A DNA stretch of 35,311 bases from a virus, in IMG/VR virus record IMGVR_UViG_3300040793_000007, positions 1 to 35,311 of that record; one strand, written 5' to 3'. The notes under the pieces were generated by a model. It was not told the origin of the DNA and did no database searches. It was given only the letters and a program-made list of their open reading frames with translations. This document shows positions 3,607-34,775 of the stretch, one piece after another (the first letter of the stretch is position 1; each line of letters starts with the position of its first letter). The position numbers and the translations under genes are program-made.

Positions 3607-5229
3607 TTATTTTTTAGCCTCTGCTTTGTTCATGGCCTGCAACCTGAGTTTCTCGCCCGGGCTTAGTGCCTTGAACTCTTCCGGCGTTAAGCTTTTCGGG
3701 GTTAAGCTTTTCGGGGTTTTTGCCTTTTCGTCTGGGTCGCCCAGCACCTGGTTTTTAAGGTCCGCGAAGTCTTTAACCAAAGCGTTAAGCTTTTCGGTTG
3801 CGTCTCCTTTATCCTTTTTTAGGTTCGCGATTTGAGCGGAAAGACCAGCAACCGTGGAGGCGTGGCGCGCTTCAATCTCTTTTTTCTCTTCGTCAAAAGC
3901 AAGCTTTAAGGCCTCCATCTCTTCTGGAGCGGGTGCCGCTGCTGGTTCCGATGCTTCACTGATTACGCCGCTTTCGTCAACCGTAATAGTTTTGCCGTCT
4001 TCTAGCTCATAGCTGCCAGCCGGTGCCTTTTCTTCTGTTGGTAGTCCTTCGACCGCCAAAAATACCGGCTTACCTATAAGCTCGCCGCCCTCTTCGCCTC
4101 CAATAAACAAGGCCGTCCCGTCTTTTGCGAGTACTGCCATATTTTTAAGCGAAGTCTTAAAGAAGTTCTTAACCCCTGCGAGCGCTTTTTCAAAGGCGCT
4201 AACTTTGTCTTTGTGATCCATATTAAGTTTATTTAAAATTTGATTAACTAGATTTATAAAGCGCTCGTTTTGCCCTTTGATAACCGCTAAGGCTTTCAGC
4301 TCTTCGACTGTTTTATAAGCTGCTAATTCGTGCTCGGGCGTTTCACCCGGCGCGGCTATGTCTCCACTGGCATAAAAGTAAACCGTTAAACTTTCGTCCT
4401 CGTTAACCTCTTCGCCTAGGCGCTCCACGCCTTCAAGCTTAGCGCCTGTTTCCTCTTCGAACTCCCTAAGGGCGCCCGCCTCGGTTGTTTCACCCTGCAT
4501 AACCTTGCCGCCCGGAAAGCCCCACGCGCCTGGCTCGAAGTCGTCCTGGGCGGACCGCTTAAGCATTAACACGCTGCCGGCTTCATTAATATAAATAACG
4601 TCCGCGTAAATCTTAACGGGGCCGTCCTGTAAATTTAACGCACCTATTTGATTCTGGCTATAGGTTAGCACCCTGTTTTTAAAGTAAGCCGTTGCTGGCT
4701 CCGCTTCGACTATCTCGGTTGCAAAGCCTAACGCCAGTGCCATGTTAGCACCTACGTTCGTCTCGACTGCCATAAGGGCCAGGATTTTAGCGGCGTTTTC
4801 GTGGCCTGCTACGCCCGCGTAAATATCCAAAATTTGCATATCGGTCTGGGCAAAAGATTCCGTTAAAGCTTTCAGGGTGTGAAAGTTTAACTTTTCGCCC
4901 GCTAAGGTGTCCGCGTCTATCCAGGCGTTATGAATAATCATCTCGGAGCCCCTAAAAACTTTTCGGGTTTTACCGGCTAAAAACATAACGCTGGCTATGC
5001 TGTTAGCTACAATTGCCTCGGTGTGCACTTCGTGCTTTTTAAGCTCTTCGAAGATTTTAAAACCCTCTTCGACTGAGCCGCCAGGGCTTTTAAAAATAGC
5101 CCGAAAAGGTCCACCGCCGTAAGAATCCAAAAAGTTTTGGAGGTCCGCAAAGCTAAAAACCTTCTCGCCCTTGGTTACGGTCGTGTCGTTTTTGCTGCCT
5201 ATTACACCTTCAATGTTTAGTATCTTCAT
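3607..5229 (-). CDS. Head maturation protease (ClpP/S14-like) fused to Nudix domain and scaffold-like C-terminus
   Basis: 540 residues with three parts. Residues 1-200 are a ClpP/SppA-like serine protease: a 'SPGGSVEEG' turn (48-56), likely catalytic Ser77 in VANSIASVMFLAG and His100 in MIIHNAW; such enzymes trim the scaffold and capsid protein in the prohead. Residues about 205-335 form a Nudix domain with a complete box at 241-263: the pattern G-x5-E-x7-R-E-U-x-E-E-x-G-U is matched residue for residue (R255, E256, E259, E260). Nudix enzymes hydrolyse nucleoside diphosphates linked to another group; the substrate here is unknown. Residues 337-540 are charged, with a coiled-coil stretch (about 430-500) and a tail carrying a duplicated KSLTP unit, as in scaffolding proteins. 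The gene is immediately upstream of the capsid gene. Protease and Nudix calls are firm; the scaffold call is inferred from position and composition. Confidence 0.85.
   Translation of the reverse strand: MKILNIEGVIGSKNDTTVTKGEKVFSFADLQNFLDSYGGGPFRAIFKSPGGSVEEGFKIFEELKKHEVHTEAIVANSIASVMFLAGKTRKVFRGSEMIIHNAWIDADTLAGEKLNFHTLKALTESFAQTDMQILDIYAGVAGHENAAKILALMAVETNVGANMALALGFATEIVEAEPATAYFKNRVLTYSQNQIGALNLQDGPVKIYADVIYINEAGSVLMLKRSAQDDFEPGAWGFPGGKVMQGETTEAGALREFEEETGAKLEGVERLGEEVNEDESLTVYFYASGDIAAPGETPEHELAAYKTVEELKALAVIKGQNERFINLVNQILNKLNMDHKDKVSAFEKALAGVKNFFKTSLKNMAVLAKDGTALFIGGEEGGELIGKPVFLAVEGLPTEEKAPAGSYELEDGKTITVDESGVISEASEPAAAPAPEEMEALKLAFDEEKKEIEARHASTVAGLSAQIANLKKDKGDATEKLNALVKDFADLKNQVLGDPDEKAKTPKSLTPKSLTPEEFKALSPGEKLRLQAMNKAEAKK
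3686..3715 (-). repeat. In-frame tandem 15-bp repeat in scaffold tail
   Basis: Two exact copies of GTTAAGCTTTTCGGG (3686-3700 and 3701-3715) duplicate the five residues KSLTP near the C-terminus of the protease-scaffold protein. This looks like recent slippage or unequal exchange in a flexible tail. Confidence 0.9.
4219..4240 (-). promoter_or_regulatory. Candidate internal translation start for free scaffold
   Basis: Met337 of the protease-Nudix protein (ATG at 4221) comes right after the Nudix domain and is preceded by an A/T-only-like stretch (AAATTTTAAATAAACTTAAT) that resembles the leaders in front of other start codons in this phage. Initiation here would give a 204-residue protein made only of the scaffold part, as in lambda C/Nu3. 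Confidence 0.4.
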
Positions 5230-5306
5230 AATTTAGCGGTTAATATACTGTAAAGTTTTAAGATAAATTCTTAATTTGCCTAAATAATTTAAACCTAATT
5301 CAAAAA

Positions 5307-7979: not shown

Positions 7980-10027
7980 ACGCCTAATTTTATAAGTTTA
8001 ACCCAGCAGCTTTCGCGCTTATTTATTTTGAACTGTTTAACCTCTTCGACTATAAAGAAGTCGCCAAAGTAATCAACGTAAACCGGTACGCTAAAATCTA
8101 AGCGCTGCACGTCTATTAAATCTAACAAAAATAAGGCTTCGACGGTTTTCGTGTTATCCAGTACCGCGCGTAAAAGCCCGTAATTGTCAGAAAGCGCCCG
8201 GCTAAAACTAAGCGCCGCGCCGTTAACTTCGAAGTTAATCTCGTTGCCGTCCTCTTCTATCTGCAGCGACGCCTCGGCCTCCGCTAAGATAGCGACCCGC
8301 GCGCTAAAGTCTGCTATTTTGGTGTCTTCGTTTAGTACGTAGTCGAAGCCGTCAAAGGTGTATTTGTCCCCTGTGAAAACGCGGCCCATAGTTCGCGAAC
8401 TCTGCAAAGTAGGCAGGACCGGAACGGGCGAAAACTTACTGGTAAATATAGACTTTTCCGCCTCTAGGTTTACGTTAACAACCTCCACAACCCCGCGCCC
8501 GTAATTTGGCTCTAGTAGGTTGTCTTTGTCGTCCCCTTTGAAGTTATAAAAGTTTCGTTTTGCAAAGACGTTAATTGAGTAACCCACTATTGGCTCGTCT
8601 GTTATGTCCAGTTTGCCGCTCCAATCAAGCGCGCGCGCTTTGTTTTTTGCTATCGTGTCCAGCTTAGCGGTGTTAACTTTCTTAGTCGTTTCATCTACTT
8701 GGATTAACAACCCTTCAAGGTTCGCCACTGTTAAAAGCAGGTCGCCCACTGTAGGCTCGGACGGCAGGACGTTAGCAGCGCGGACCGTTACCGGAGCTAT
8801 GAAAGCCGGGGCGGTTATCCGTTGCCCTGCCTTTGGTGTCTGGTTAATTATAAACTCTAAATTTTCAAAGCGTAGATACTTTAAGCCGTAGCCGGGGCGG
8901 TTGCTCCTAACCTGCCAGCCAAACCTTAAAAGGGTGTAGTCCGGGTTTGCCGCCAGCATTGCATTAAATGCCGCCGTATCGTCGCGCGTGGAGGGAAAGA
9001 CCGAGTTAATATCTCGCTCTAGAGTTCCGCTGGCCGGCGCTTTGTAAACGTTAAAAGGCCCTTTAAACCTATCCTCAAACTGTACGGGAGCGCTTGAAAT
9101 TGTTAAGAGTTCCGCGCCTGCAGCGTTGTAAATTATTAAGTCGATCCATACGAGCGCGTTAGTGTAGCGCCGGGGCAAATTGGTAATAACTTTGCCGGCT
9201 ACACTTATTTCAAAGCGCGCCTGCTGGCCGGTCGCCACGTTTGGGCTATAGACAAACTGGCCTATAGTCAAATCATTTCTATATAAAAGGGACTTATCGG
9301 AAACGCGCTCGGGAAAGTTTATTTTTTCCTCTTCGTCTCCGGTTAGCCTATTATAATCAATAGTAAATTTGTACTGGGCTAAGCTGTCTAACAGGTCCGC
9401 GACGGCTCCGCGGCAAAGGACCACTAAGCGGCGCCAGGTAAGCGTCTGCAATATGTCGCCGTGAAGCGTGTAGCCCGCCTCGCTTATCGCTTTTAATAGG
9501 ATAGTATTAGCCCAAAAGCTGGGATGAAAAAACCTAAAAGAATACGTTAATGCGTCCGGGTCCGCGTACTCCAGAAAGCCGTAATCTATGTTTGGGTAAA
9601 CGAAGCCGTCCAAAGTTTCGCGGCGCGGGATAACTTCGACGGCTTCGTATTCGTGGTCATACTCTGCTAAATCTACCTCGGTAAGTTTAACCGAACTAAG
9701 GGCCTTAAAAAAATCCGTATTGCCTGCGCTCACAAAAAGCCGGTATTTTTCCTGGGTTTCTAAAATTGTAGCCGTGCCGTCAATTATTAGCATACCATCA
9801 ATAAAATGCTTGAAGGTGTTTAGCTGGTAGGGTAGGGCTGTTAAGCTTGTCACTATTTCGCAATTATCAAAAAGCGCCTTATTTGCGTTAGTCTTACTAA
9901 GTTCGAAGACGTTGGAGTAACTGCCTTTGCGGCTGCCTAAAGTCTCAAAGCTTAGCGCCTGCAAAGTCATAACTATCTCGGCGTCCTGGGTATCTACTAA
10001 AAGGCCGTTTATATAGGTTTCTGTCAT
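7976..10027 (-). CDS. Putative tail tip / tail-associated structural protein
   Basis: 683 residues. The opening (MTETYINGLLVDTQDAEIVMTLQALSFETLGSRKG.YSNVFELSKT) is characteristic of a large protein widely found in Bacteroidota phages and prophages, where it lies next to the tape measure; I place it as tail-associated (hub or Tal-like) on that basis. The rest is beta-rich with many short strands and aromatic residues (DYGFLEYADPDALTYSFRFFHPSFWANTILLK; NFYNFKGDDKDNLLEPNYGRG), no signal peptide and no membrane segment. Its ATG overlaps the upstream stop as TAATG (10029-10025), and its own stop overlaps the next start as ATGA. The module position supports a tail role; the exact position in the tail tip is inference. 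Confidence 0.6.
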   Translation of the reverse strand: MTETYINGLLVDTQDAEIVMTLQALSFETLGSRKGSYSNVFELSKTNANKALFDNCEIVTSLTALPYQLNTFKHFIDGMLIIDGTATILETQEKYRLFVSAGNTDFFKALSSVKLTEVDLAEYDHEYEAVEVIPRRETLDGFVYPNIDYGFLEYADPDALTYSFRFFHPSFWANTILLKAISEAGYTLHGDILQTLTWRRLVVLCRGAVADLLDSLAQYKFTIDYNRLTGDEEEKINFPERVSDKSLLYRNDLTIGQFVYSPNVATGQQARFEISVAGKVITNLPRRYTNALVWIDLIIYNAAGAELLTISSAPVQFEDRFKGPFNVYKAPASGTLERDINSVFPSTRDDTAAFNAMLAANPDYTLLRFGWQVRSNRPGYGLKYLRFENLEFIINQTPKAGQRITAPAFIAPVTVRAANVLPSEPTVGDLLLTVANLEGLLIQVDETTKKVNTAKLDTIAKNKARALDWSGKLDITDEPIVGYSINVFAKRNFYNFKGDDKDNLLEPNYGRGVVEVVNVNLEAEKSIFTSKFSPVPVLPTLQSSRTMGRVFTGDKYTFDGFDYVLNEDTKIADFSARVAILAEAEASLQIEEDGNEINFEVNGAALSFSRALSDNYGLLRAVLDNTKTVEALFLLDLIDVQRLDFSVPVYVDYFGDFFIVEEVKQFKINKRESCWVKLIKLGV

Positions 10028-14125: not shown

Positions 14126-15419
14126 GTGAGCGGCTTTTATAGTTTGGGGTGTAGTTGGTTAGCAGCATTACGGCTAAATAGCGGGCCGCGTCTATAGCGT
14201 GATTAAAAGCGTCAACCGGTTTATTAGTCGCTTTGCCTGTCTTTTTATCCTTTGCCCAGCTGTAGGTTCTAAGTTCTTTTATTAGGTTTAGGCTCCGCGA
14301 CGTTACCAGCATCTCGTAACCCTGCAGTAAGTCAATCCCAAAGTTAACGCTGTCTTTCCCCTTGCCAGCCGGTAAGACGTTAAAGCCATAACTAACCAGC
14401 TCTTTAATGCTTTTCGGCTCCGCCTGGTCCGCGTAAATCACCACGCCCGGCTTAACTCCGACCTGCCTATACATCGCGGCCAGGTCGGAGTTTAGCAGGC
14501 CTTTCTGGTATATAAGCTCGTCAAGTATTATTTTACCGTCCCACGCGTAAACCGCAACGGTCGCCGCCGGGTCGTTAGTAAATCCAAAGTCCTGGCCGTA
14601 GCCTAAAAGCTTGGCGCCTTCTGGCACTCCGTTTATTTGCTTCCAGTTATCAAATATTACGCCCTCTAAGCTGCCAACTTGTCCCAGTCCGTAAACCTTC
14701 CACCAGTTCGCCCAATAGGAGTTTTTAATATTTGCCTCCGCAAAAAGCGCTTTGCCCTCCAGGCTTTCGTCATAAAAAGCTTTGGCCCGGTTTTTCTCAA
14801 TCTCTTTAACGATTGCCGGCGCCAGGGCTTCGTTATCCTTGTAAGTTAAAATAAGCTTTGCGGCGTCCGGGTCGTTAGCCAGCTCGGTGTGGGCCCAGAA
14901 TTCCGCGGTCGGGTTATAATCTAACCAAATCTTTAAGTTTGTCCGTATGGCTAACTGGTAATAAGTTTCAAAAGTTAGATTATTTGCTTCGTTTATGTAG
15001 AGAATATCCCGCCTCGGTCCTCGTACTTTTGCCTCCGATTCTGCACTAAAAAATTCGATATACGACCCGTTACGGAAATTATAAACGCGGTCCGTTTTAT
15101 TATAGTCCTTATCCCGCCAGCGGCCCGTGCTAACCATGAACTTTTTAAAATCCCTTATGGCTCCTTTCTTCAGGTGCGGCACGCTTTCCGCAACTACTGA
15201 AATAGTAGCGCCCGGCATCTCTATAGCGTCCTGGTATAGTTGCGGTATAATCCCGACCGTCTTACCTGCAGACGTTCCGCCTGGGACCTCTAAAGTCCGC
15301 TTGCCCGATAAGGATAGCTCGCGGAGTTTGCGGACCGCTGTAGTCACCAGCCAGCCCTCGGGCGAGACGGCTAAGTTTCTACTCAGTGCGGGCGCCTTAC
15401 TCTTTTTTGCTGCCTGCAT
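14070..15419 (-). CDS. Large terminase subunit (ATPase-nuclease)
   Basis: 449 residues from the ATG at 15419 (MQAAKKSKAPALSRN); an upstream TTG at 15464 lies inside the small terminase gene and is less likely. It powers DNA packaging and cuts the concatemer. Walker A is GGTSAGKT (47-54), Walker B DILYINEAN (138-146, Glu144 as base). The RNase H-like nuclease half shows Asp277 (GYGQDFGF), Asp331 (IYADQAEP) and Asp403/Asp410 (DAFNHAIDAARY). Length is normal for a terminase. It overlaps the small terminase stop by 23 nt and the next gene start by 56 nt. Confidence 0.92.
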   Translation of the reverse strand: MQAAKKSKAPALSRNLAVSPEGWLVTTAVRKLRELSLSGKRTLEVPGGTSAGKTVGIIPQLYQDAIEMPGATISVVAESVPHLKKGAIRDFKKFMVSTGRWRDKDYNKTDRVYNFRNGSYIEFFSAESEAKVRGPRRDILYINEANNLTFETYYQLAIRTNLKIWLDYNPTAEFWAHTELANDPDAAKLILTYKDNEALAPAIVKEIEKNRAKAFYDESLEGKALFAEANIKNSYWANWWKVYGLGQVGSLEGVIFDNWKQINGVPEGAKLLGYGQDFGFTNDPAATVAVYAWDGKIILDELIYQKGLLNSDLAAMYRQVGVKPGVVIYADQAEPKSIKELVSYGFNVLPAGKGKDSVNFGIDLLQGYEMLVTSRSLNLIKELRTYSWAKDKKTGKATNKPVDAFNHAIDAARYLAVMLLTNYTPNYKSRSHGKTKRKSKGSHYQDFLD

Positions 15420-15861
15420 CAAATATTGGCTGGTATGGCACCTCGGTATTTTCCACCCTTTCAACCAGGCCGAGCTCGCGCGCTATGATTGAAGGGTTTA
15501 GCAGGCCCGCCGCCGCGCCTTCGATCTTCTGGCCGTACATTATCTCGCGCGCCTGCGCTATGATTTCCTGAAAGCCGTCCCGCTTTTCGTACTCGTAGAG
15601 CGTCGAAGAGCCGCAACCCGTAAAGCCACAAAAGCCCTGTATAGTCATGCATCGCATTTTAGGGAGGCTGTAAACCTTCACCTTTTCGGCCCCGCCAGCC
15701 GCCTTAATCTTCTGTAAAACGGCCTCTTTTAGTGGGTTATCTTCTACGTGTTGAAAGTAGTCGTTAAACGCTTCGCGGAGTTCGTCGGGGCTGTCAAACT
15801 TTCGCGGCGCCCCGGTTTTTATTCTAAACATCCAGTGTTTGTTTCCTATCGGTCCAGGCAT
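15397..15861 (-). CDS. Small terminase subunit (GP3_package type)
   Basis: 154 residues. Small terminases recognise the packaging site on phage DNA and hand it to the large subunit. The sequence fits the P22 gp3-like family: an N-terminal MPGPIGNKHW.FRIKTG.PRKF (as in GKHPW..F..GRPR..), a helix-turn segment MTIQGFCGFTGCGSSTLYEYEKRDGF, and the oligomerisation segment REIMYGQKIEGAAAGLLNPSIIARELGL, which is highly diagnostic. It starts 2 nt downstream of a TTAAACTTTATTTGA element, giving a very short leader. The iteron region upstream is the natural place for its packaging site. Confidence 0.88.
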   Translation of the reverse strand: MPGPIGNKHWMFRIKTGAPRKFDSPDELREAFNDYFQHVEDNPLKEAVLQKIKAAGGAEKVKVYSLPKMRCMTIQGFCGFTGCGSSTLYEYEKRDGFQEIIAQAREIMYGQKIEGAAAGLLNPSIIARELGLVERVENTEVPYQPIFDAGSKKE

Positions 15862-15862
15862 A

Positions 15863-15911
15863 TCAAATAAAGTTTAATACAATGTTAAATCTTTTGAGGT
15901 TCAAAAGCAAG
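15863..15911 (-). promoter_or_regulatory. Promoter F (late/terminase) with displaced operator
   Basis: Minus-strand -33 TTG at 15910-15908, 20-nt spacer, -7 TAACATTG at 15887-15880. The operator-like element TCAAATAAAGTTTAA (15863-15877) lies downstream of the -7 element, about where transcription would begin, unlike promoters A-E where the palindrome is upstream of it. The ATG of the small terminase is at 15861, so the transcript has a leader of about 10-15 nt. Confidence 0.55.
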
Positions 15912-15934
15912 GGCGGACCCCTGAAAGCATAGAA

Positions 15935-16246
15935 GTAAACAAGTCTGGCGGCTCTAAAGTCTTGTTTACAAGCTAACCAATTAAAAACCAACTACTTACG
16001 CCAAAAAGTAAACAAGTAAACAAGTTTTACATATAATATTCTGGAGGCGTAGGGGTGTCTGGTTTACTACTGTGTATAACCTACTACCTAATACTATACA
16101 CCCCCCTTCCCTATTTATATCTTTCTTATTATTATTGTTTACTTGTTTACTTTATAGAGAATATAGTATAAAAAGGGCCTTTATAATACCGCCAAGGCTG
16201 TAAACAAAGAAAGTAAACAAGAGCCCCAAAAAGCGCCCTCGTTTAC
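15935..16246. repeat. Iteron region: repeated GTAAACAAG
   Basis: Exact copies of GTAAACAAG on the plus strand at 15935, 16008, 16016 and 16213, and on the minus strand (CTTGTTTAC) at 15961 and 16142; near-exact copies at 16134 (minus) and 16200 (plus); 6-bp cores at 16062 and 16241. Two tandem pairs with 8-bp period are inverted to each other (16008-16024 and 16134-16150). Between them lies an AT-rich stretch with an inverted repeat GTGTATA (16072-16078) / TATACAC (16095-16101). No ORF of note occupies 15912-16256. Candidate replication origin or packaging site. Confidence 0.75.
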
Positions 16247-16256
16247 ACCAAACAGG

Positions 16257-16284
16257 AAAAGCCGCCTTTTTACCGGCGGCTTTT
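16257..16284 (-). terminator. Terminator of the replication operon
   Basis: Arms AAAAGCCGCC (minus 16284-16275) and GGCGGCTTTT (16266-16257), a 10-bp perfect stem, 8-nt loop, trailing T-run from the arm itself. It lies 20 nt past the last replication-side gene (16304) and separates it from the iteron region. The stem is symmetrical and could also stop plus-strand transcription. Confidence 0.8.
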
Positions 16285-16303
16285 AACTTTATAACTTAAA
16301 ATT

Positions 16304-16905: not shown

Positions 16906-18324
16906 TTAGGTGTATTTTTTAACTAAGTCTTTTATAAATCCTATTTGGCTTTTGTCCGCTTTTACGGCGTGCATTAGTTCGCCCTCGGTTGCGTCCTTAT
17001 CTGCCAGGCTCCGCGCTACGCGCTCGTCGATAGTGCCCTGGGCTATTATCCTATAAATAAATACCTGCTTAGCCTTCTGGCCCTGCCTGTAGAGCCGCGC
17101 TATTAATTGTTTGTAAAGCTCCGAGCTCCAGTTCAAACCAAACCAGGCTATATAGTTAGAGCCGTGCTGGATGTTAAGCCCGTGCCCTCCGCTGGCTGGG
17201 TGTAAAACAAGCATAGGCACGCGCCCCGCGTTCCAGTCGTCTATGTCCTGCTGCCCACTGAGAACCCGCGCGCCGGCCTTCCCGAACCGCTTTAGAATCC
17301 GGGCGGTGTCGTGCTTAAAAGATACTGCCACCAGCAGCGGCTTGCCGTTGGTCGCCTCTACCACGTCTTCGAGCTTATCTAACTTTAGATCGTGGATTCT
17401 ATGCACGTTCCGCTCGGCGTCGTAAACCGCGCCGTTAGCATACTGCAGCAACTTATTAGAAAGCGCGGCGGCGTTCGCTACGCTTATTTCCTGGCCGGCT
17501 CCCAGCTCATTGATAAGGTCCAAAACTAATTCCTTTTCGAAGATGTCGTAGCCGTCGCGGACCGCCGCCGGGAATATTACCGGCTCGTCTATTATCAGTT
17601 TGTCCGGCATGTCTAAGAAGTCCTCGGCCTTCATGCTTATGCAAATGTCGCCTATCTCCTTATAAATCCTTTTTTGTTGCCGGTCGTCTCTCAGTGCATA
17701 GCTGTAAACTATTGAGCCGTTACGGGCGTCGGGTTTAAAGTACTCGTTTCTATACCTACCAATCGAAGCGCCTAATCGCTCGCCGCCGTCAATAAGATAA
17801 ACCTGGGCCCAAAGATCAATTAACCCATTAGGCGCCGCCGTACCGGTCAAACCTACCACGCGAGGCACCGACTTACGAACCCGCTTAAGAGCTTTAAACC
17901 TTTGGCTTTGGTGGTTCTTAAAGCTGCTTAGCTCATCCAGTAGCAGCATGTCAAAAGGCAACATTGAGCCGCCGAACTGCTCCACGAGCCAGGGCACGTT
18001 GTCCCGACTTACTAAGAAAATCTCGGCGTTAGCTTCCAAAGCTTTAAGGCGCTTAGCCGGCGTACCTGCTACCAGGCTAAACTTAAGCGAGCGCGTGTGC
18101 TCCCACTTAAGCGCCTCCTGGGTCCAGACGCTTTCTACAACCCGCTTAGGGCCTACAACCAGCACGCGCTCCACTTCCATAAGATCAAGTAACTCGCGTA
18201 TAGCTGTCAGGCTTATAATTGTTTTACCCAGCCCCATGTCCAGGAAGAGCCCGGCGCCGTCGTGCTTTAGTATATGCTTAACACCAAAGGTCTGGTAGTC
18301 GTGGAGGTTTGAAGCGTTTAACAT
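16906..18324 (-). CDS. SNF2-family DEAD/H-box helicase (translocase)
   Basis: 472 residues from ATG 18324, which overlaps the VRR-NUC stop as TGATG; a TTG one codon upstream is unlikely. Phage SNF2-like proteins are DNA translocases thought to act in recombination-dependent replication. Motifs in order: Q-like start YQTFGVKHIL (10-19), Walker A DMGLGKT (29-35), Ia VVGPKRVVESVW (56-67), II LLDELSSF (128-135), III GLTGTAAPNG (158-167), V HPASGGHGLNIQ (375-386) and VI QLIARLYRQGQ (406-416). The size is that of a minimal phage version. The VRR-NUC gene directly upstream is its frequent neighbour in phages. Confidence 0.9.
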   Translation of the reverse strand: MLNASNLHDYQTFGVKHILKHDGAGLFLDMGLGKTIISLTAIRELLDLMEVERVLVVGPKRVVESVWTQEALKWEHTRSLKFSLVAGTPAKRLKALEANAEIFLVSRDNVPWLVEQFGGSMLPFDMLLLDELSSFKNHQSQRFKALKRVRKSVPRVVGLTGTAAPNGLIDLWAQVYLIDGGERLGASIGRYRNEYFKPDARNGSIVYSYALRDDRQQKRIYKEIGDICISMKAEDFLDMPDKLIIDEPVIFPAAVRDGYDIFEKELVLDLINELGAGQEISVANAAALSNKLLQYANGAVYDAERNVHRIHDLKLDKLEDVVEATNGKPLLVAVSFKHDTARILKRFGKAGARVLSGQQDIDDWNAGRVPMLVLHPASGGHGLNIQHGSNYIAWFGLNWSSELYKQLIARLYRQGQKAKQVFIYRIIAQGTIDERVARSLADKDATEGELMHAVKADKSQIGFIKDLVKKYT

Positions 18325-18632
18325 CAATCTAAATTCTTAAGGGCCGGGCGGTAAAGGTCCGCCAGGACTTTTAACAGGCTGTCAACCATACCGGCGGAGT
18401 TCGCCACGTACACGCGGACGCCTAACGCTTCGAGCTTCTTAGCTACGTGGAGCTGGCGGGGCCTAAGCTTCAAGCCTTCGCCCTTAGTCTCCACGAAGAA
18501 CACCAGACCGCCCGGCATAATGCAAAGCCTGTCAGGTATGCCAGCGAAGTAAACCGCGGGAAACTTAAGGCAAAGCCCGCCTAACTTCTCGACGCCTAAG
18601 CGGAGCTTTTTTTCTATTTGTTTTTCAGTCAT
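18324..18632 (-). CDS. VRR-NUC domain nuclease
   Basis: 102 residues, entirely the VRR-NUC fold (PD-(D/E)xK superfamily). Seen: the conserved GIPDRL (31-36, Asp34), strand then VETKGEG (47-53, Glu48 and Lys50) and RPRQ (57-60, Gln60), followed by the ALGVRVYVANS strand. These small stand-alone phage nucleases pair with SNF2 helicases and probably resolve branched DNA. Start ATG 18632; the methylase stop overlaps it by 4 nt (ATGA). The stop is joined to the helicase start as TGATG, so the pair is translationally coupled. Confidence 0.9.
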   Translation of the reverse strand: MTEKQIEKKLRLGVEKLGGLCLKFPAVYFAGIPDRLCIMPGGLVFFVETKGEGLKLRPRQLHVAKKLEALGVRVYVANSAGMVDSLLKVLADLYRPALKNLD

Positions 18633-19934: not shown

Positions 19935-19976
19935 CAATATTAAACAAAGTTTAATGAAATACCAAACAAAGTTTAA
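19935..19976 (-). promoter_or_regulatory. Promoter/operator B (methylase-nuclease-helicase unit)
   Basis: Minus-strand -33 TTTG at 19966-19963, 20-nt spacer, -7 TAATATTG at 19942-19935. Palindrome TTAAACAAAGTTTAA at 19940-19954; second copy CCAAACAAAGTTTAA at 19962-19976, 22 bp away, overlapping the stop codon of the adenine methylase gene. Start codon of the next gene is 23 nt downstream of the -7 element. Confidence 0.8.
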
Positions 19977-20670
19977 ATAAAAGTAAATAATTTTTCAATT
20001 CGACGCTCGCCCGCCTTGTTGCTTCTTACTTCCAGGTTAACATCTTTTCGCCAAACCTCCACGAAGTCAGGCGGCGCGGCGTACTCCGATATAAAAACAA
20101 GGTTCTCCTCGCTTAGGTCCCGGCACTTTTGCCAAAACGCCGCGGAGTCAAAACCGCCGGAACTATAGGCCGTCGTCCCAGCATAGGGAGGGTCGCAATA
20201 GATCACAAAGCCGCTATACTCTGAGGTTAAAAAATCTTCGTGCTTAAACGTTACACCTTTGCAGCGCCTAAACTTGTCCGCTAAAGTCTTCGAAGCTCTT
20301 AAGGCGAAGTTAACCTCGCCCCGCCTTTAGTTTCGGGCGCGTAACCCCCAAAGAATTTACCAGCGAAGCTGCAGGCGAAGCCCACAAAGCCCCGCATAGC
20401 AGACGGCCCGGGCGAAGCCTTAATAGCTTGGTAAGCCTGCTCGCTTATGCTGTTAGGGAGGCTAAACCCGTTTTGCATCCTTAAGTAAAGCTCTATTAAA
20501 TCTGGATGAAAATCCCGGGCGTGTCGCTCCGCTGCAGGGTTAACAAATTGAACAACGTTCAAAGCCCCGCAAAACGGCTCGGCGTATTTGCTAAACCGCC
20601 CGCCCAGGTTACTGTTTATAACCGCGGCCAGCTCTTTAGCTATCCGCGCTTTGCCTCCAAAGTATCGCAT
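19973..20670 (-). pseudogene. Frameshifted D12-class (Dam-like) adenine-N6 methyltransferase
   Basis: Two pieces of one gene. The first (20670-20299) reads MRYFGGKARIAKELA (motif X/GGK), AEPFCGALNVV (motif I), then stops soon after FFGGYAPETKGG. The second frame continues as VNFALRASKTLADKFRRC..., with motif IV YCDPPYAGTTAYS, and runs to 19973. Joining them needs a -1 shift at a run of four G (plus-strand CCCC at 20317-20320); one extra G gives GGGEVNFALR and a normal protein of about 232 residues. Such enzymes typically methylate A in GATC. The cause may be a true mutation, a programmed -1 shift or a homopolymer error in sequencing. It starts 2 nt after the primase stop. Confidence 0.85.
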
Positions 20671-20671
20671 T

Positions 20672-23050
20672 TTATAACTTTTTAAATATTCTTTGGCGTC
20701 CGTAAATCGGTACGTTTTTAACGGACCCGGTAAAGCGCCAGCCTAAGCTTCTTAAAATCTCGTTTACTTCTTTTGTATTATAGCGGCTCATGTCTTCGCG
20801 GCGTTTGTCCAAACACTCTACCCAAATCTCGGCGACCGTTACCTCGTGCCGTGGCTCGTCGTCTTCGTCCGCGGCGCCGTCGTCCTGCATAAAGGTATTA
20901 AAGTATGCCACGCGGTCAAAGGCTGCCATTTTCGCCCAGTCCATCGGTAAAGGCATTCCCAGAAAAGTGGATATAAGCCCGGCCCGCTCGTCTATTTCCA
21001 TGTGGTCCGCCTGAACCGCGCGCGCTTCCGCCGTCACCGCCTCCGACAAATAAAGCTTTTCGCCTTGCATAAAATAATGGACCGCCTCGGCCCAAATTTG
21101 GTTTACCTCTTCGCCTACCAGCTCCAGGTCAACCGAGCGCTTTACATATTGCATAAAACATTCAATAGGCAAAAAGCGCCTGTTTCCGGTCGGGTCCTTT
21201 AGAAAATCTCTTAAGTTTGTGGAGCCTACAAAAATATTTTGCCGCTCGTACTCTTCGCGGACGTGTCCATAAGCCGGGCGGTACTCGTCTTTTTGCTTTG
21301 TTATAAAATGCTTTACGGCCTCCGCTTCGCCTTTTCTCATACCTGCCAGCTCTGCTACCTCTATAATCCAGGCGCCTTGTATTTGCTCTACTGCTTCTTT
21401 GCCGTCAACCTTGAAAAACGTATCGCTAAACCACTGTTTGCCGAGGCGCTTCCAAAAGGTAGATTTATATAAGCCCTCTTCACCTACCAGGACCGGCATA
21501 AGATCAAATTTGCAGCCAGGGTTAAACACCCGAGCAACGGCTCCGCAAAGCGTTTTTCTTATCGCTTCGCGGGTGTAGGGTGAATCTTTAGCGCCCAGGT
21601 ACTCTATAAAAAGAGTATCTACGCGGGGCGTCTGGTCCCAAATTAAGCCATTTAAATATGTTTTGATAGGGTGCCAGGCGTTGCGGTATAACTCTAAGTT
21701 TAAACTATCCTGCACTATTTCTTTTCCGCGTATTCCGTACCGCTTACCTATGTAATTTCTAAGCCCGGAAAAGTCAACGTTTTTCATGGGGTCGCCTTCC
21801 TTTGTTTTTCTCCACGGTATCGGGCGCCTAAGGCTGGGTTTGCCGTTAAATTCATTAAGAGCAAAAAGGCCCTTTAGTGTGCCGTCGTTTTCCAGTATTA
21901 AATCTATATTCTTTTCGGTATTTAAAAACGTGGTGCCTTTGCCGTCCATGTCCATACCTTCAAGCCAGCTCGCGTCCGCCTCTTCATCCGTTCCAAAATT
22001 CTCGCTTTCGTCTTCAAAATCCGAGGCTAAGGCTTCCTTTAACTCGCGCGCTAAAATAGCTTTTACGGCCTTGTCTGCCATCGCAAAAGCTTCCATAGCC
22101 TTAAAGCTTTTTAAGCTATTAGGCGCCGCGTCTAAGGCTGCGAACTTATGCACCCGCACCAGGTCAAAAACATTACAAAGCATACCGCTGGCCGGGTCGG
22201 TTCCGTGGTGGCTGTAGGCGTATTTATTCTCGTATATAACCAGGCCGTTTGCCGTGCTGCCTTTGGTGTACGTATAGCGGCCCTCGGTGCCCTCTTCGTA
22301 TTGCTTAGGTAAGAACGCCGCCAGCGCCTCTTCGACCGTGTAGGCGCGGCAAAAAGCGCCTATAACTCCGCGCTTCTCCAGCGGGTCTTCTTGCTTGTCC
22401 GCACGGGTTAAAATATCTTCGTTACTCTTTTTATTCGTGGGCCACTCTGAGACGTCGCGCCAGTTCCGGTAAGAGTTTAAAACTTTGTCAACGTCTAACC
22501 AGTCGCCTTTCTGGTGCTCTATATAAAAATCCTTGTCGCTGCAGACCGTCGGCCAGTACATTAGTCTATTGACTTCAAAAGTCGTATTATCAAAAAATTC
22601 TATGCCTATGCCGCCGGCTATTTTTCTGGCGGTTGCGGTGTACTCGTCCGCGGCGCACTCCCGCGAAAGTGGAATAAGCAACCGGTAACGCGGGGCGCTG
22701 TCTTCGTGGCTCATGGTGCCGTGAATTACGGCCTCACAATCAAACGCAAATTGAAAGCCCTCCCAAAAGTCAAGCGTTCCAAAATCAATATCTAAAGTTA
22801 AAAGTTGTCTATAGCTTACGTTTGCCGGGCTCCGCTTTCCGGCTCTAAGATAGCCGCCCACATAGCCGCCTACGTCCTTAACTTTGCCGGCGTCGCTTTT
22901 CGAAAGGGCTCTAAATTTTTTAAATGGTATGTCTTTAATTTGTGGCGTGTTCAACTTCTGCACGAAGTCTGGCCAGCTTATTTTTTTGTTTTTCCAAACT
23001 TTCGCCTGGGCGGTAAAGGCTACCGCGATTTCGATAAATTCGCCTTGCAT
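20672..23050 (-). CDS. VapE/VirE-like primase-helicase
   Basis: 792 residues from ATG 23050 (MQGEFIEIAVAF); an upstream TTG is less likely, and the ATG follows the shared leader TTTTTCGGTTA. N-terminal part (about 1-190): archaeo-eukaryotic primase (PrimPol)-like, with TLDIDFG (85-91, Asp87 and Asp89), IHGTMSHEDSAPRYRLLIPLSR (109-130) and later NRLMYWPT. The middle (200-400) is a variable linker. The C-terminal half is a VirE-type P-loop ATPase: Walker A VGEEGLYKST (522-531), Walker B WIIEVAELAG (561-570), sensor GSTN (609-612) and TGNRRFLPIE (621-630). This combination makes primers and unwinds DNA in phages without DnaB/DnaG genes. It is the replication initiator candidate for the iteron region. 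Confidence 0.88.
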   Translation of the reverse strand: MQGEFIEIAVAFTAQAKVWKNKKISWPDFVQKLNTPQIKDIPFKKFRALSKSDAGKVKDVGGYVGGYLRAGKRSPANVSYRQLLTLDIDFGTLDFWEGFQFAFDCEAVIHGTMSHEDSAPRYRLLIPLSRECAADEYTATARKIAGGIGIEFFDNTTFEVNRLMYWPTVCSDKDFYIEHQKGDWLDVDKVLNSYRNWRDVSEWPTNKKSNEDILTRADKQEDPLEKRGVIGAFCRAYTVEEALAAFLPKQYEEGTEGRYTYTKGSTANGLVIYENKYAYSHHGTDPASGMLCNVFDLVRVHKFAALDAAPNSLKSFKAMEAFAMADKAVKAILARELKEALASDFEDESENFGTDEEADASWLEGMDMDGKGTTFLNTEKNIDLILENDGTLKGLFALNEFNGKPSLRRPIPWRKTKEGDPMKNVDFSGLRNYIGKRYGIRGKEIVQDSLNLELYRNAWHPIKTYLNGLIWDQTPRVDTLFIEYLGAKDSPYTREAIRKTLCGAVARVFNPGCKFDLMPVLVGEEGLYKSTFWKRLGKQWFSDTFFKVDGKEAVEQIQGAWIIEVAELAGMRKGEAEAVKHFITKQKDEYRPAYGHVREEYERQNIFVGSTNLRDFLKDPTGNRRFLPIECFMQYVKRSVDLELVGEEVNQIWAEAVHYFMQGEKLYLSEAVTAEARAVQADHMEIDERAGLISTFLGMPLPMDWAKMAAFDRVAYFNTFMQDDGAADEDDEPRHEVTVAEIWVECLDKRREDMSRYNTKEVNEILRSLGWRFTGSVKNVPIYGRQRIFKKL

Positions 23051-23081
23051 GTTTTTTCGGTTAATGGATAAGGGCAAAGTA

Positions 23082-24135: not shown

Positions 24136-26063
24136 TCTTTTAAATAAAAGTCGCTTATAAACCCGTCCGCGGCCAGTGGCAACCCCGCCGCCCAGTCAGG
24201 TTTTTTGGTTATTACCTTTAGCAGTTCTTTATATTTAGCCTCCACGTTTTCGCTGGGTTGCTCTACTACTATTTCGTCGTGCACGTGTAAGACTATCTCG
24301 AAGCCCGCGCGCTCCGCGTTAAGCATTGAAAAGGCCAGCAGGTCTCGCGCTACTGCCTGCACTATATTCTCGGTAAGCTTTCCGCCGTAAGTGCTGAGAC
24401 GTGCCCACTTTCGCGAATATTGGTCAACGCCTAAATAGGCTATTTGCTCGCCGAACTTGCCCGGCCTAAGTTGAGGGCTTTGATACATGAGCGGACGGCC
24501 CGACGGCAAGAAACAAAGTAAAACTTTATTGTCATACTGGAAAGTAACGCCGCAACGGCTAACCCTTTTAAGCGGGTTTTTCATCGCTAAAACGGCGGCT
24601 TTCTCTACGTCGTGCCAGTACTTTTTTATGTTAGGGTTTGCCCGCCTCCAGGCGCTAACTATTGGCTGTAACTCTTCCTCTTTTAAACCCATAGCCTCGG
24701 CGCCCATCGAAAGAAGCGCATTAACGCCGCCCTGGTAGCCCAGCGCCAGCTCCGCTATCTTGCCTTTTTGCCTGTACTCCGAGCCCTTGGTTACGGATTC
24801 GAAAGGCACACCAAACATGAGCGCGGCGCTCGCTTCGTATATCTTGCCGTGTGTGTTAAATACGTCAAGCCTCCACGTTTCACCGGCGAGCCAGGCTATT
24901 ACGCGCGCTTCGATAGCGGAGTAGTCAGCTATCAAAAATTTGTGCCCCGGCTTAGGCGCCAGCATGGTCCTGGTTAATTGCTTTAAAACGTCCTGCAAAT
25001 CTTCATATAAGAAGACCAGCGCCTCGGTGTCGCCTTCCAGTAGTAGCGCCCGCGCTTCGCTTAGCGTCTTCATGTAATTACGCGGCATGTTTTGTAATTG
25101 GATGCCGCGCCCGGCCCAGCGGAACGTTCGCCCGGCTCCGCCAAACTGTAGAAGCCCGCGCGCCCTTCCATCTTTGCACGCGTAATTCTGGGCCGCGGCG
25201 TACTTCTTAACGCTTGTATTACTCATTTGCTGGCGGAGTTCCAGGGCCCTCTTAACTTCGCCCGACGCGCTTACTAAAAGGTTTTTAACCGTCTCCGCCT
25301 TTAGGTCTTGAATATTTCCACCTGTTCGAGCGTTAATCCATTTTTGAAGCTGCGCCGGGCTGTTAGGGTTTGTTAACCCTGTTAGCTTTCTGGCCTCCAC
25401 TGTTAACTCGTGGCTGCTTATTTTGTCAAGCTCCACGGCGTTTTTAATTAGGTCCAGCTCAAGCCTTACGCCGCGGTCGTTAATTTTTTGATCTATTATA
25501 TAGTTTTCCGTTTCTGTAAATTTGTAAGGCTCCAAAGCATAAAAAAGCTCGCGCGTTGTGCCTACGTCGTCGCGTAAATAATCTTTGAAAGCTTCCCACT
25601 TTTCCGGGTCGTGCTCGGGCCTGTTACGGGTCCGCCCTTCATTTGTTTTTGTAGGTTTACAAGGGATGCAAAAATAACGTATTAGCGCGGCGCCTCCCTT
25701 GTCTTTTTGGGTTGTAAGGTTAAGGGCTTCGCCCGCTTGCGAAAGGCTCATAGGTAGCCCGCAATAAGCCGCCTTAACCATTGTACAAACCCAGCGCTCG
25801 CTCGGTACGTCGAAGCCGTGCGCCCGGAAGGCTAAGCGCTCAAAGGTCGCGTTATGAGCTATAAGCTTTTCGGCTCTTTTGCAGGTGCCTAAAAAGTCTA
25901 TCCAGCTTTGCTGGTCGTCACGTTCAAAAACAACTATAGGCCCTTTATTTATGGCATAGCCTACCAGAATAATTTCGAAGTCAGGCGCCTCGGTGTAAGG
26001 GTACGCCCCGCCTTTTTTTATGTCCGCTCCGCTGAAAGTTTCGACGTCTATAAAAACATTCAT
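24132..26063 (-). CDS. Family A DNA polymerase (3'-5' exonuclease and polymerase domains)
   Basis: 643 residues. Exonuclease domain: exo I FIDVETFSG (Asp6, Glu8), exo II HNATFERL (70-77), exo III YLRDDVGTT (162-170). Polymerase: motif A FLIADYSAIEAR (376-387, Asp380), motif B RQKGKIAELALGYQGG (431-446), motif C LHVHDEIVVE (592-601, Asp596). It lacks a 5'-3' exonuclease domain, as expected for phage polymerases. This is the replicative enzyme. The start ATG 26063 overlaps the stop of a 41-residue membrane gene as ATGA. Its stop lies inside the operator of promoter C. Confidence 0.95.
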   Translation of the reverse strand: MNVFIDVETFSGADIKKGGAYPYTEAPDFEIILVGYAINKGPIVVFERDDQQSWIDFLGTCKRAEKLIAHNATFERLAFRAHGFDVPSERWVCTMVKAAYCGLPMSLSQAGEALNLTTQKDKGGAALIRYFCIPCKPTKTNEGRTRNRPEHDPEKWEAFKDYLRDDVGTTRELFYALEPYKFTETENYIIDQKINDRGVRLELDLIKNAVELDKISSHELTVEARKLTGLTNPNSPAQLQKWINARTGGNIQDLKAETVKNLLVSASGEVKRALELRQQMSNTSVKKYAAAQNYACKDGRARGLLQFGGAGRTFRWAGRGIQLQNMPRNYMKTLSEARALLLEGDTEALVFLYEDLQDVLKQLTRTMLAPKPGHKFLIADYSAIEARVIAWLAGETWRLDVFNTHGKIYEASAALMFGVPFESVTKGSEYRQKGKIAELALGYQGGVNALLSMGAEAMGLKEEELQPIVSAWRRANPNIKKYWHDVEKAAVLAMKNPLKRVSRCGVTFQYDNKVLLCFLPSGRPLMYQSPQLRPGKFGEQIAYLGVDQYSRKWARLSTYGGKLTENIVQAVARDLLAFSMLNAERAGFEIVLHVHDEIVVEQPSENVEAKYKELLKVITKKPDWAAGLPLAADGFISDFYLKD

Positions 26064-30795: not shown

Positions 30796-31328
30796 CTTTT
30801 TAGTTTTGGTTTAGTATCTTCGTCTGGGGGGCACGCCTCGGAGTCTTTTAATTTTTTAATTGCTTCCTTAACGCCCGAGTAAATTAGCTGCCTAAAAGTG
30901 TTAATTAATAAAACTACTAAGTCTTTATTTGCTATGTCGCGGCCCCGCTTAACGCTTAAAATATTGGTGTAGCAGCTGGCCAGGTCGTTAGCTATCAAAG
31001 TATAAATAGCAGTCAAAACAAAAATATTCAGGTTAACACCGGCCAGCGCGCCAATCAAAGCAAGGCTAAGCGGCAAAAACAAAATAGCTATTTTGGTGCC
31101 AAAGCCTACATAAAACCGGGCCTTAGTTATGGACTCCGAACCGTAAAGGCTGTAAGACTTCCAGACGCCCAGGATTGAATCACTAACCATGAAAAACCAA
31201 AGCAAAAAGATTAGGCCGTAATTAACACCCAGAAAGGTAAAGGACGTAATTAAGGCAAGCTTTGCCCCTATAAAACTTTCCTCAGTAACCGGGTTATTGT
31301 TTAAGTTTGGTAATTTTTCGAACTGCAT
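30792..31328 (-). CDS. Holin (TIGR01593/phage_holin_4-like)
   Basis: 178 residues from ATG 31328 (MQFEKLPNLNNN); a TTG four codons upstream is disfavoured. Membrane segments at about 25-52 (LALITSFTFLGVNYGLIFLLWFF), 75-100 (GTKIAILFLPLSLALIGALAGV) and 100-125 (NIFVLTAIYTLIANDLA), with the family-like 'MVSDSILGVWKSY' after the first and a basic tail. Holins make holes that let the endolysin cross the inner membrane. ATGA overlap with the endolysin confirms a lysis cassette. Confidence 0.75.
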   Translation of the reverse strand: MQFEKLPNLNNNPVTEESFIGAKLALITSFTFLGVNYGLIFLLWFFMVSDSILGVWKSYSLYGSESITKARFYVGFGTKIAILFLPLSLALIGALAGVNLNIFVLTAIYTLIANDLASCYTNILSVKRGRDIANKDLVVLLINTFRQLIYSGVKEAIKKLKDSEACPPDEDTKPKLKR

Positions 31329-31387
31329 GTATTGGCGCAAAGATTAAGCAGGTCGCGAAAATGGCCCTGCCTACCGTGAATAATAGT

Positions 31388-31468
31388 TTAAAGGTACGAA
31401 AAGATACATAAGGGTCCGCCGCCTCCAATAGGGCGTTTTGGCTTTTCTTCTTCTGTCTTTTTCATCAT
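31388..31468 (-). CDS. Possible 26-residue peptide between fibre and holin genes
   Basis: ATG overlaps the upstream stop (TAATGATGAAA) and encodes MMKKTEEEKPKRPIGGGGPLCIFSYL, charged then glycine-rich, ending in a cysteine-hydrophobic tail. Coupling supports translation, but the length is at the noise level. Only a small stem (GCAGG/CCTGC, 31345-31371) follows, and the remaining gap to the holin holds nothing else. Confidence 0.3.
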   Translation of the reverse strand: MMKKTEEEKPKRPIGGGGPLCIFSYL

Positions 31469-32070
31469 TATGCTTTTTTAAATTGGTAATAAAGCTCTAT
31501 AGCGCCAGACGTAAAAGTGATTTCTTCGACTGGTAAGGCTGTAATTTTAGATCGTAAGGTTATTTTTGTTAAAGGCGAATCTACATTGTTTGGGTACAAC
31601 AAGCTAACATCTTCATTGCTTAGGCCTGATCCTCTAAAGAATCTTAAGGAACCACCTGGTATGCCTTCAATAGTGTACGAACCTGGGATGCCTCCAAATT
31701 CTAAATGTCCTGTTGGTAATCCTGATGTAGAGGCTACATTCATTGAAATGTAGACTATAACTAAATCACCGATAGTATATATTTGCCCAGCATTACCTGA
31801 AATAGAATAAGTAGCACCACCACCTGAGTCGGTCAGTGTTGGGGTAAAAGAATCTATGGCTTGACTGACTAACCCCGTCAATTGACTAAACCTAACCAAC
31901 TCATTTGCTGAATCTGCATCCTGTGCGCTCGTAGGTGGAGTAGCAAAACTATTTGATCCCGTGAAGGCGTTTGTTCCTGCTTGGGTTACGTCCCCGACCC
32001 CAGCATCAACCCCTTTAACCTGTCTTGATCCTTCTGCGTCTATTTTCCTGTTGTTTGGTATTGATGTCAT
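31468..32070 (-). CDS. Putative short tail fibre/appendage protein
   Basis: 200 residues from ATG 32070 (MTSIPNNRKIDAEGSRQ), preceded by AATAATAAATAAA, so preferred over an ATG eight codons upstream that overlaps the tailspike end. It has a repeat-rich start (TQAGTNAFTGSNSFATPPTSAQDADSANELVRFSQL), as in phage fibre proteins that sit in trimers, followed by a beta-rich C-terminal part (GQIYTIGDLVIVYISMNVASTSGLPTGHLEFGG; TLRSKITALPVEEITFT). AT-rich like the tailspike body, which suggests they came together. Confidence 0.6.
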   Translation of the reverse strand: MTSIPNNRKIDAEGSRQVKGVDAGVGDVTQAGTNAFTGSNSFATPPTSAQDADSANELVRFSQLTGLVSQAIDSFTPTLTDSGGGATYSISGNAGQIYTIGDLVIVYISMNVASTSGLPTGHLEFGGIPGSYTIEGIPGGSLRFFRGSGLSNEDVSLLYPNNVDSPLTKITLRSKITALPVEEITFTSGAIELYYQFKKA

Positions 32071-32078
32071 TTTATTTA

Positions 32079-34775
32079 TTATTTTGCTACCCATCCTGTA
32101 TTTCCTGTACCTGATTCCTTTACATAAAGAGTAGTACCTGCGCCACCAGATAAGTTGATATATTGAACTCCTATTTTAGCAGTAACTACACTTTCTGGAG
32201 TGCCTGTTCCTTTTAATATTCTTGGATCTCCTATACTTCCAGCCACTACCCACCTGGAGGGCACGATACCCGTTGAGAAATATAACCCGCTAGCATTTTC
32301 ATACTCGTTGCCTATCTCTAGTAAATTGTTAATTGTTTTACCTGAACTTAAAAATAAACCTCTTATGGCTGTGCCAACCATTTTAGAACTAATCATTTTA
32401 AAACTGTTAATGTTTTGTTCACAAAAACAAACAAATGCGCTAGCCGAAGAATTTTCAAAAGATGTTGAAACTATTTCAATATTCTGAACCTCAGAACGCA
32501 AATACAGATAGTGAGAAATGCCCCCAGTAAAGGTACAGTTATAAACGCCCACTTTATTAATTAGTGCCAAACCAGTAGTTAAGTATATAATGTGTGGGGC
32601 GTTTGATTCGCAGTTTTTTAAAATAACAGAAAGGCCGTCTTGGTAATTTCTAACAAAAGTTGATACGGATGAGTTGGTAGGCGGGGTGTCGTAATGGGAT
32701 TTGCAGTTATTTAAAGTTAAAACCGGTAACGTGTTGCCTGTTGTTATGGAGGCTATTCTCCCGCTGTTTTTAGCGTACAAATTTTCTAGCTTCCAACTAC
32801 TAATTATAGAAGATATACAAGTAAGTAAAGAACCATTTGTTGTAGAAATAAAATCTTGAAAAACGTTAGTAACAATTAAATTATTAATAGTAGATAGATT
32901 AATTATTATTAACTCAAATACATTTTTTGATACTAATCCGTCAATTTTTAACAGGTCTATTTCAAAAGAAGAAGTCGTTCTAATACCTATAGCGCAGTTT
33001 TTAACAAAGCAATTAATTATTTCGTTATTTCTACCCTCAATAGTAAATCCAATAGAAGTGTAAGGGGTGTTATTTCTCTCTATCCCCCCTATAGCTTGGC
33101 AATTTTCAAATCTAGCTCTTCCACAGCTGGCGTGAGTATTAAAAATTCCGCTACTAACACCGTCATCTTCCCCATCGCTGCCACTAAAATCTTTAACAGT
33201 GCAACCCCAACTAACTCCGCCAAAAGAGGGCGAACCCCCAAACATTACAGCGTGCCTGTTTCCTTGGCTAACACCACTAAAAGTCGAAAACATTGTAGAG
33301 TTACCAATTAAGATGCCGTAACCAATACCAGTTCTATTAGCTCCGTAATTATTAACTTTTACATTAACATTATAGCAATCGTAAACAGACAAGGCAACAT
33401 TAATAGCGTTATTAACTTCAACCTCAATATTTAATCCATCAGCAAAACGAACAAATAAACCGTTTGAGGAAGTATTTCCGCCTTGTGTTATTTTTAAATC
33501 TATCTTTTTGTTTTTCGGAGGTGTTATTTTTGCAATCCTAACTGAATCTGATACAAGGTAAGAATCCTCTAAATACCCATAAATACTAATAACTCCCGTG
33601 CTAGTGTTTACAGATTTTACTCTTTGGATTTCTCCTTGTGAAACACCCTCGCCACTTAAAGGCGCAAATTCTTTATTTGAAATAATCTTTACTAAATCAC
33701 CTTTTGCAAGATTCAAAGAGACGGAATCGGCTGGGGAAACTGTTAAGCTACTTTGTCCATTAACTCTGTCAACCAGTAGATTATAATAAGTGCTTAATGA
33801 GCCTTCAATTTTTATAACATAGTCTGCCGTATTACTTATAAATTCTGCGTTGCCTTCTACATCAACATTGGACAAATCTATAACTGAGGAAACAAAGTAT
33901 TTTCCTTTGATGCCTATTTTTTTTCCAGCTAACTTACTCGCATTTATCGAGGCTATTAAATTTGTGGTGTCATCTATAACGCCATCGTTTTCAACTCCGA
34001 ACCAGATAGGATCTAGTATTTCATAATCCCTCTTCCATAACCCGCCATCAGCAGCATTAAAATAAACTCCACCATCGGCAACAAATCCAGATCCAGACGG
34101 AATATAAGTAAAAGTACTACCACCTTGACCACCTCCATTAACATAAGCCCTAGTTCGGTTAATTCTGTTTTGGGTTGATAAATCAGTAACAACATCAAGT
34201 GAAAGTATAGAGGTGTCATTAGCAGCTATACCGCCGTCTTGGTCTTTCTGTAAGGCTAAACGTTGGTCGAATATGCTTGACGCCTCTGCGCTCCCTATGC
34301 CTACCAGGTTAAGCGGCTTAGTTGAATAGCACACTTGAATATAGTCGTCCGCCTGCAGGTCATAAAGAACTGTCAAGGTACTTCCGTCCAGCGTCCAGGC
34401 CAGTCCGTCCGAAGCTATAGTTTGCCCGTTAAGTGTAACGCCTATCACATCCAGAGGAGACTCGTTTAACTCAAATACCTGGGAACCTGAATAGTCAAAA
34501 GGTTCTGTCCTTATACGTCCGGAGTTGTTTGCTATAAGGCTATCCAACGGGACCAGGTACGCTTCGCCTTCCCGGATAATAAGCGCGGTATCTCCGCTAA
34601 CTACTGCGCTATCACCCTGCACCCCGGCGAGTAGATTGCCTCGGCTTTGAGCGCTGAAAAGCTCTTCTATAAGGGCTTGAATCATTGGGCGATGCTCGCC
34701 CGCTGCCGTTATTGGCTGCCCGCTGGCGAGTAGCGCGTTCTTAAGTGCTTCTAGTTGTGCTTTGGTAAAAGCCAT
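32079..34775 (-). CDS. Tailspike/tail fibre with pectate-lyase-like beta-helix
   Basis: 898 residues. Residues 1-about 170 are a particle-binding N-terminus with normal base composition (MAFTKAQLEALKNALLASG; VIGVTLNGQTIASDGLAWTLDGSTLTV). From about 180 the gene becomes AT-rich. Residues about 255-300 show WFGVENDGVIDDTTNLIASINASKLAGKKIGIKGKYFV, the start of the pectate lyase-like tailspike fold. Long repeating short strands with N/G-rich turns (300-830) form a right-handed beta helix, and the C-terminal end (about 855-898, GTGTPESVVTAKIGVQYINLSGG; TTLYVKESGTGNTGWVAK) is a common tailspike C-terminal motif. It likely binds or cleaves a host surface polysaccharide. Confidence 0.85.
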   Translation of the reverse strand: MAFTKAQLEALKNALLASGQPITAAGEHRPMIQALIEELFSAQSRGNLLAGVQGDSAVVSGDTALIIREGEAYLVPLDSLIANNSGRIRTEPFDYSGSQVFELNESPLDVIGVTLNGQTIASDGLAWTLDGSTLTVLYDLQADDYIQVCYSTKPLNLVGIGSAEASSIFDQRLALQKDQDGGIAANDTSILSLDVVTDLSTQNRINRTRAYVNGGGQGGSTFTYIPSGSGFVADGGVYFNAADGGLWKRDYEILDPIWFGVENDGVIDDTTNLIASINASKLAGKKIGIKGKYFVSSVIDLSNVDVEGNAEFISNTADYVIKIEGSLSTYYNLLVDRVNGQSSLTVSPADSVSLNLAKGDLVKIISNKEFAPLSGEGVSQGEIQRVKSVNTSTGVISIYGYLEDSYLVSDSVRIAKITPPKNKKIDLKITQGGNTSSNGLFVRFADGLNIEVEVNNAINVALSVYDCYNVNVKVNNYGANRTGIGYGILIGNSTMFSTFSGVSQGNRHAVMFGGSPSFGGVSWGCTVKDFSGSDGEDDGVSSGIFNTHASCGRARFENCQAIGGIERNNTPYTSIGFTIEGRNNEIINCFVKNCAIGIRTTSSFEIDLLKIDGLVSKNVFELIIINLSTINNLIVTNVFQDFISTTNGSLLTCISSIISSWKLENLYAKNSGRIASITTGNTLPVLTLNNCKSHYDTPPTNSSVSTFVRNYQDGLSVILKNCESNAPHIIYLTTGLALINKVGVYNCTFTGGISHYLYLRSEVQNIEIVSTSFENSSASAFVCFCEQNINSFKMISSKMVGTAIRGLFLSSGKTINNLLEIGNEYENASGLYFSTGIVPSRWVVAGSIGDPRILKGTGTPESVVTAKIGVQYINLSGGAGTTLYVKESGTGNTGWVAK

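Follow-up and report, generated by a model that had tools for sequence, protein, structure and literature searches.

The window, a stretch of 35,311 bases constituting a virus record classed as linear, carries its main genes on the minus strand and encodes virion genes for terminase, portal and tail. In gene direction, the replication cassette comprises genes for an exonuclease, an ssDNA-binding protein, DNA polymerase A, VapE (20672-23077, minus strand), methyltransferases, a VRR-NUC-type endonuclease and an SNF2-type helicase (16906-18327, minus strand), the helicase gene being assigned by domain match and by relatives as the last conserved gene of the cassette. Next come two small genes, then a gap without genes at 15862-16303, the small terminase gene (15397-15861, minus strand; P22 gp3-like, GP3_package by family match) and the large terminase gene. 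The short open reading frames at 19973-20206 and 20299-20670 match positions 239-321 and 65-156, respectively, of the 647 positions of phrog_56 (methyltransferase) and are, judging from these matches, probably one methyltransferase gene in pieces. The tail-fibre region (31001-34000) has a G+C content of 0.36-0.38 per 2 kb, compared with about 0.48 elsewhere, as if it had been acquired recently.

We detected in the gap a putative iteron array (15935-16246, without strand), made up of two sets of GTAAACAAG-type sites, ten in all and in mixed orientation, which we propose as the replication origin. Word matching placed exact single copies of GTAAACAAG at 15935-15943 (plus strand), 15961-15969 (minus) and 16213-16221 (plus), and single copies with one mismatch at 16059-16067 (minus), 16200-16208 (plus) and 16238-16246 (minus). 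The remaining sites form two tandem pairs with an 8-bp period, one at 16008-16024 on the plus strand, with exact iterons at 16008 and 16016, and one at 16134-16150 on the minus strand, with a one-mismatch iteron at 16134 and an exact one at 16142. An earlier note on this DNA had counted six exact and two near-exact copies; the six exact copies were confirmed, and the near-exact ones proved to be four one-mismatch sites, giving ten sites rather than eight. The mutual inversion of the two tandem pairs, the AT-rich core (the gap is 65% AT, versus 52%) and the absence of a gene were all as that note had described, with no open reading frame of at least 60 aa within 15862-16303, where the longest stop-free frame has 63 codons. 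The arms 15991-16023 and 16135-16167 are 82% complementary, and a terminator-like hairpin (16257-16284, minus strand; folding z -4.3) closes the upstream gene block ahead of the array. The nested GTGTATA/TATACAC dyad that had also been reported is present, but it was rejected as a conserved structure, its inner hairpin folding no better than shuffled sequence (z 0.19 and -1.05) and the dyad being absent from three relatives (L009, L011, L014). A search of the window for Rfam families gave no match.

The word counts were matched by none of 5000 dinucleotide shuffles. GTAAACAA occurs eight times in 15862-16303, compared with at most four copies of any non-simple 8-mer in the shuffles, and the 9-mer with at most one mismatch has 10 sites in the gap, compared with a shuffle maximum of 4. 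In a 312-bp scan of the window, no single 8-mer exceeded four copies outside the gap, and no second word cluster was found elsewhere in the 35,311 nt. The AT-rich segment beside the right tandem pair (16106-16175, without strand) contains the least stable DNA of the array, 60-bp windows at 16111, 16116 and 16106 ranking 3rd, 5th and 13th least stable of 7050, and by this rank it is a candidate unwinding element. The GC-skew check suggested in the earlier note revealed no switch at the array; all main genes, however, lie on one strand.

The array core also includes the sole match in the 35 kb (16071-16079, minus strand) to TTATNCACA, which we take to be the DnaA-box consensus, as would suit an origin opened by host DnaA with the iterons in a secondary role. 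We regard this as very unlikely: the box is a single match in the window, it is altered in the 86% relative, and over 130 arrays there was no clear enrichment, TTWTNCACA boxes occurring at about equal frequency inside (6 in 45.5 kb) and outside (179 in 2079 kb).

Both the gap and its words recur in an almost identical contig (L004) and in another with 86% small-terminase identity (L005/L006). Contigs L009 and L011, with large terminases 71% and 69% identical, share this layout, their words being of the GTAAACAAT or GTAAACAAA type; L014 also shares it, with the word changed to GGAAACAA throughout, and the word of locus L165 is GTAAACCAT. The words thus change as a set between relatives, pointing to one trans-acting reader.

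The best match of the window VapE (801 aa), both by sequence (E 6.5e-67) and by fold (TM 0.81 on the target), is PriRep1 (PDB 7pds), the staphylococcal-island initiator solved with dsDNA, and we propose VapE, a primase-helicase, as the initiator of the phage. Its AlphaFold model has a mean pLDDT of 84.8 and a pTM of 0.54, and the C-terminus of the model consists of helices 719-731, 748-755 and 765-777 with a two-strand wing, a secondary structure from which we name the predicted fold a winged helix (codons 719-801; 20675-20923, minus strand). The ATP-binding loop at residues 532-540 (GEEGLYKST) is without the usual Gly ahead of Lys. The loops of the BF503P1 and TCUEAP1 VapE proteins depart similarly (GEQGVYKST and GKQGQFKST), and the Bacillota VapE proteins retain GxGKS/T-like loops.

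VapE loci were gathered by alignment-based scans, 149 of 166 remaining after collapse at 95% VapE identity, and were analysed for clusters by a word-free definition (an 8-mer occurring at least five times within 350 bp and present in both orientations). A cluster was scored as 3' when it started from 100 bp before to 300 bp after the vapE end, and only loci with at least 700 bp of 3' sequence entered these counts. Among non-redundant loci with VapE below 46.5% identity to that of the window, 68/105 had a 3' cluster, compared with 9/3816 random zones of the same loci. A held-out set of 84 loci, whose VapE proteins are less than 90% identical to one another and to those of the first set, gave 45/73 below the same cut-off and 0/10 in the clade of the window, defined by VapE identity of at least 46.5%; loci without a 3' cluster numbered 37/105 and 28/73 in the two sets. 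The cluster words have a common form, roughly TGKNAACA, and the arrays exceed their own locus in AT content in 114/130 cases. Two loci with clusters of unrelated or coding-like words (L130, L206) were omitted from the word and covariation analyses. These distributions support the view that, in many phages and prophages, arrays of this kind are part of the VapE-type replication cassette.

In the clade of the window the placement is different from that in the other loci, with no array beside vapE in 41 loci (random zones, 22/1427); a cluster was found somewhere in the DNA examined in 18 of the 41 and none in the flanks of the other 23. Clusters of fitting words were present in 16 clade loci. In eight of these the array is confined to the region upstream of the exonuclease gene (L137, L140, L147, L149, L156, L157, L160, L161), in six it is confined to the region downstream of the SNF2 gene or of vapE (L119, L120, L129, L131, L132, L163), and the remaining two have arrays with the same word at both cassette ends (L128, 343-525 and 12655-13000; L165, 3451-3732 and 18908-19248). 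The window array is of the downstream-of-SNF2 kind, here ahead of the terminase gene, and 4.4 kb separate it from the initiator gene (vapE ends at 20672). A pattern search over whole contigs, covering 18 of the 23 clade loci without a flank cluster and L164, which falls below the clade cut-off, found matches in 9 of the 18 and likewise in 9 of all 19 records, compared with 3 single matches for the reversed control pattern; one of the contigs (L146) has two groups of matches, one on each side of vapE.

This placement bears on the packaging half of the earlier note, which had proposed an origin, a packaging site or both. A packaging start (pac) site bound by the adjacent small terminase would fit the position of the array immediately ahead of a P22 gp3-like small terminase gene, a position shared by Croceibacter phage P2559Y, L131 and L163. 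P2559Y, with a VapE 51% identical to that of the window, carries ten copies of ATTGTTTA in a cluster at about 42880-43095, close to where its circular record ends; this cluster precedes the small terminase gene and is 11 kb away from vapE. The search for a P22-like 22-mer in the terminase gene of the window gave a best match of 13/22, the same as in the array, so that no pac site was located. In a P22-like phage, pac is annotated within the small terminase gene, whereas the window array lies outside that gene, and the eight clade loci with the array only at the exonuclease gene argue against packaging as well. Among terminase relatives, a cluster preceded the terminase gene in only 7 of 64 loci (those of 80 with at least 1.5 kb upstream), six of them being near-family contigs (two on the near relatives of one contig), and a VapE domain was encoded by 1 of the 16 terminase-relative contigs searched, many of which are fragments. 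Staphylococcus phage QT1 has its cluster at 40010-40299, adjoining vapE and far from its annotated cohesive end, a 10-bp 5' overhang at base 1. Since the array is placed at either end of the cassette in the clade and the terminase relatives are mostly without it, it goes with the replication cassette and not with the terminase; the small terminase gene is probably not part of the system. Packaging was rejected as the main reading on the frequent exonuclease-end position, these relatives and the missing P22-type 22-mer, and we consider it very unlikely that the array is a pac site; the origin half of the earlier proposal was supported, the arrays tracking VapE-type cassettes in both sets of loci.

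The clade positions are also operon starts, and three promoter-like sites overlap the window array, with 1.3 expected, as would suit operators through which a regulator acts on the early and late operons, placed ahead of the exonuclease or the terminase operon. Outside the clade, however, the clusters directly follow vapE, an unsystematic look revealed no regulator gene accompanying the arrays, and the words co-vary with VapE and not with a candidate repressor, making operators an improbable explanation. VapE could itself have both roles, as initiator and as regulator.

The covariation was scored as mutual information between each VapE column and each word position, relative to shuffles, and averaged over 20-residue windows. 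The twelve highest-scoring windows of the first set (68 loci) begin at 746-758, the best scoring 0.97 (mean 0.39, sd 0.16), and for the held-out set (45 loci) the top eight start at 750-759, the best scoring 0.98 (mean 0.35, sd 0.20). In both sets the peak, VapE residues 750-777, lies on the predicted helix-turn-helix, suggesting that this part of VapE may be the reader of the word. As one example, each of the four loci with Arg at VapE column 768 has C at word position 4, and no more than five loci have that base there. Three control proteins encoded in the analysed loci (the SNF2 helicase, the DUF2800 nuclease and the ssDNA-binding protein) stayed below the VapE peak, but a fourth, the DNA polymerase, had one window at 1.23, compared with 1.06 for VapE (83 loci). 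When word similarity was set against VapE identity over whole domains, the relation was weak and did not single out the C-terminal domain, the local peak appearing only in the column-wise scan. Because the DNA polymerase window is equally strong and the whole-domain comparison unspecific, shared ancestry is only partly controlled, and the covariation is therefore good, not final, evidence. The VapE-like primase had been named in the earlier note as a putative binder of the repeats, and the covariation agrees with such a role.

We conclude that the array is probably the replication origin of the phage, bound by VapE through its C-terminal winged helix and opened by it, with helicase loading and priming. 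VapE would bind the GTAAACAAG words through the winged helix and assemble, presumably as a ring, on the two iteron sets; it may then melt the AT-rich DNA between and beside these sets, load as a helicase and prime DNA synthesis, so that replication would start at the array.

PMC6092414 describes PICI origins as two iteron sets with an AT-rich region, and PMC7581432 describes SaPI Rep as recognising, by its C-terminal domain, iterons that lie directly downstream of the rep gene. The window resembles these systems in an initiator of the SaPI Rep/Pri-Rep family (PriRep1, 7pds), in two iteron sets flanking an AT-rich, easily melted region, and in the C-terminal domain as the proposed reader, in line with the account of SaPI Rep in PMC7581432. 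It differs in that the array is not directly 3' of the initiator gene and in that the window belongs to a phage, which has its own terminase, portal and tail genes, and not to a satellite island; for these two reasons we did not file the array as a SaPI/PICI origin. By the sequence features tested, the best explanation is that it would work like a SaPI/PICI origin that has moved from the initiator gene. The kind of origin is known from satellite islands, and its placement and reading code look new.

The alpha protein of phage P4 is considered a single primase-helicase that reads one word at two separate sites, ori and crr. The paired arrays of L128 and L165, each pair with one word, resemble this arrangement, and the window differs from it in having one array only. 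On a wider scale, and tentatively, as something we would place a little below an even chance, the phage VapE ('virulence-associated protein E') proteins may constitute one large class of self-loading initiators, which read an iteron word that changes by means of the winged helix; within one phage clade of Bacteroidota type, the origin would have separated from the initiator gene and relocated to the cassette edges, in some genomes as a matched origin pair read by one protein. If the winged helix does read a changing word, the recognition code would therefore be derivable from sequence alone.

The vapE gene is common in phages and prophages and is often annotated as a virulence gene without a stated role; the analysis offers it a role as replication initiator, together with a means of locating the origin of vapE genomes by sequence and a testable protein-DNA code between VapE residues at about 750-777 and the iteron bases. 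No mapping of a VapE-phage origin was recognised in the literature searched, which included few subscription journals, and the accessible portions of PMC8637289 and PMC2605562 map no such origin.

Word clusters of other kinds were also observed. P2559Y (L121) has eleven same-direction GAAACTCC copies at 5077-5234, overlapping annotated genes, and L043 has seven mixed-orientation AGAAATTA copies at 8047-8334, upstream of a distant large-terminase relative. Elizabethkingia phage TCUEAP1 (L123) has six mixed-orientation TGTCTCAA copies between annotated genes at 24888-25115, 10 kb before vapE, and this cluster is a candidate origin.
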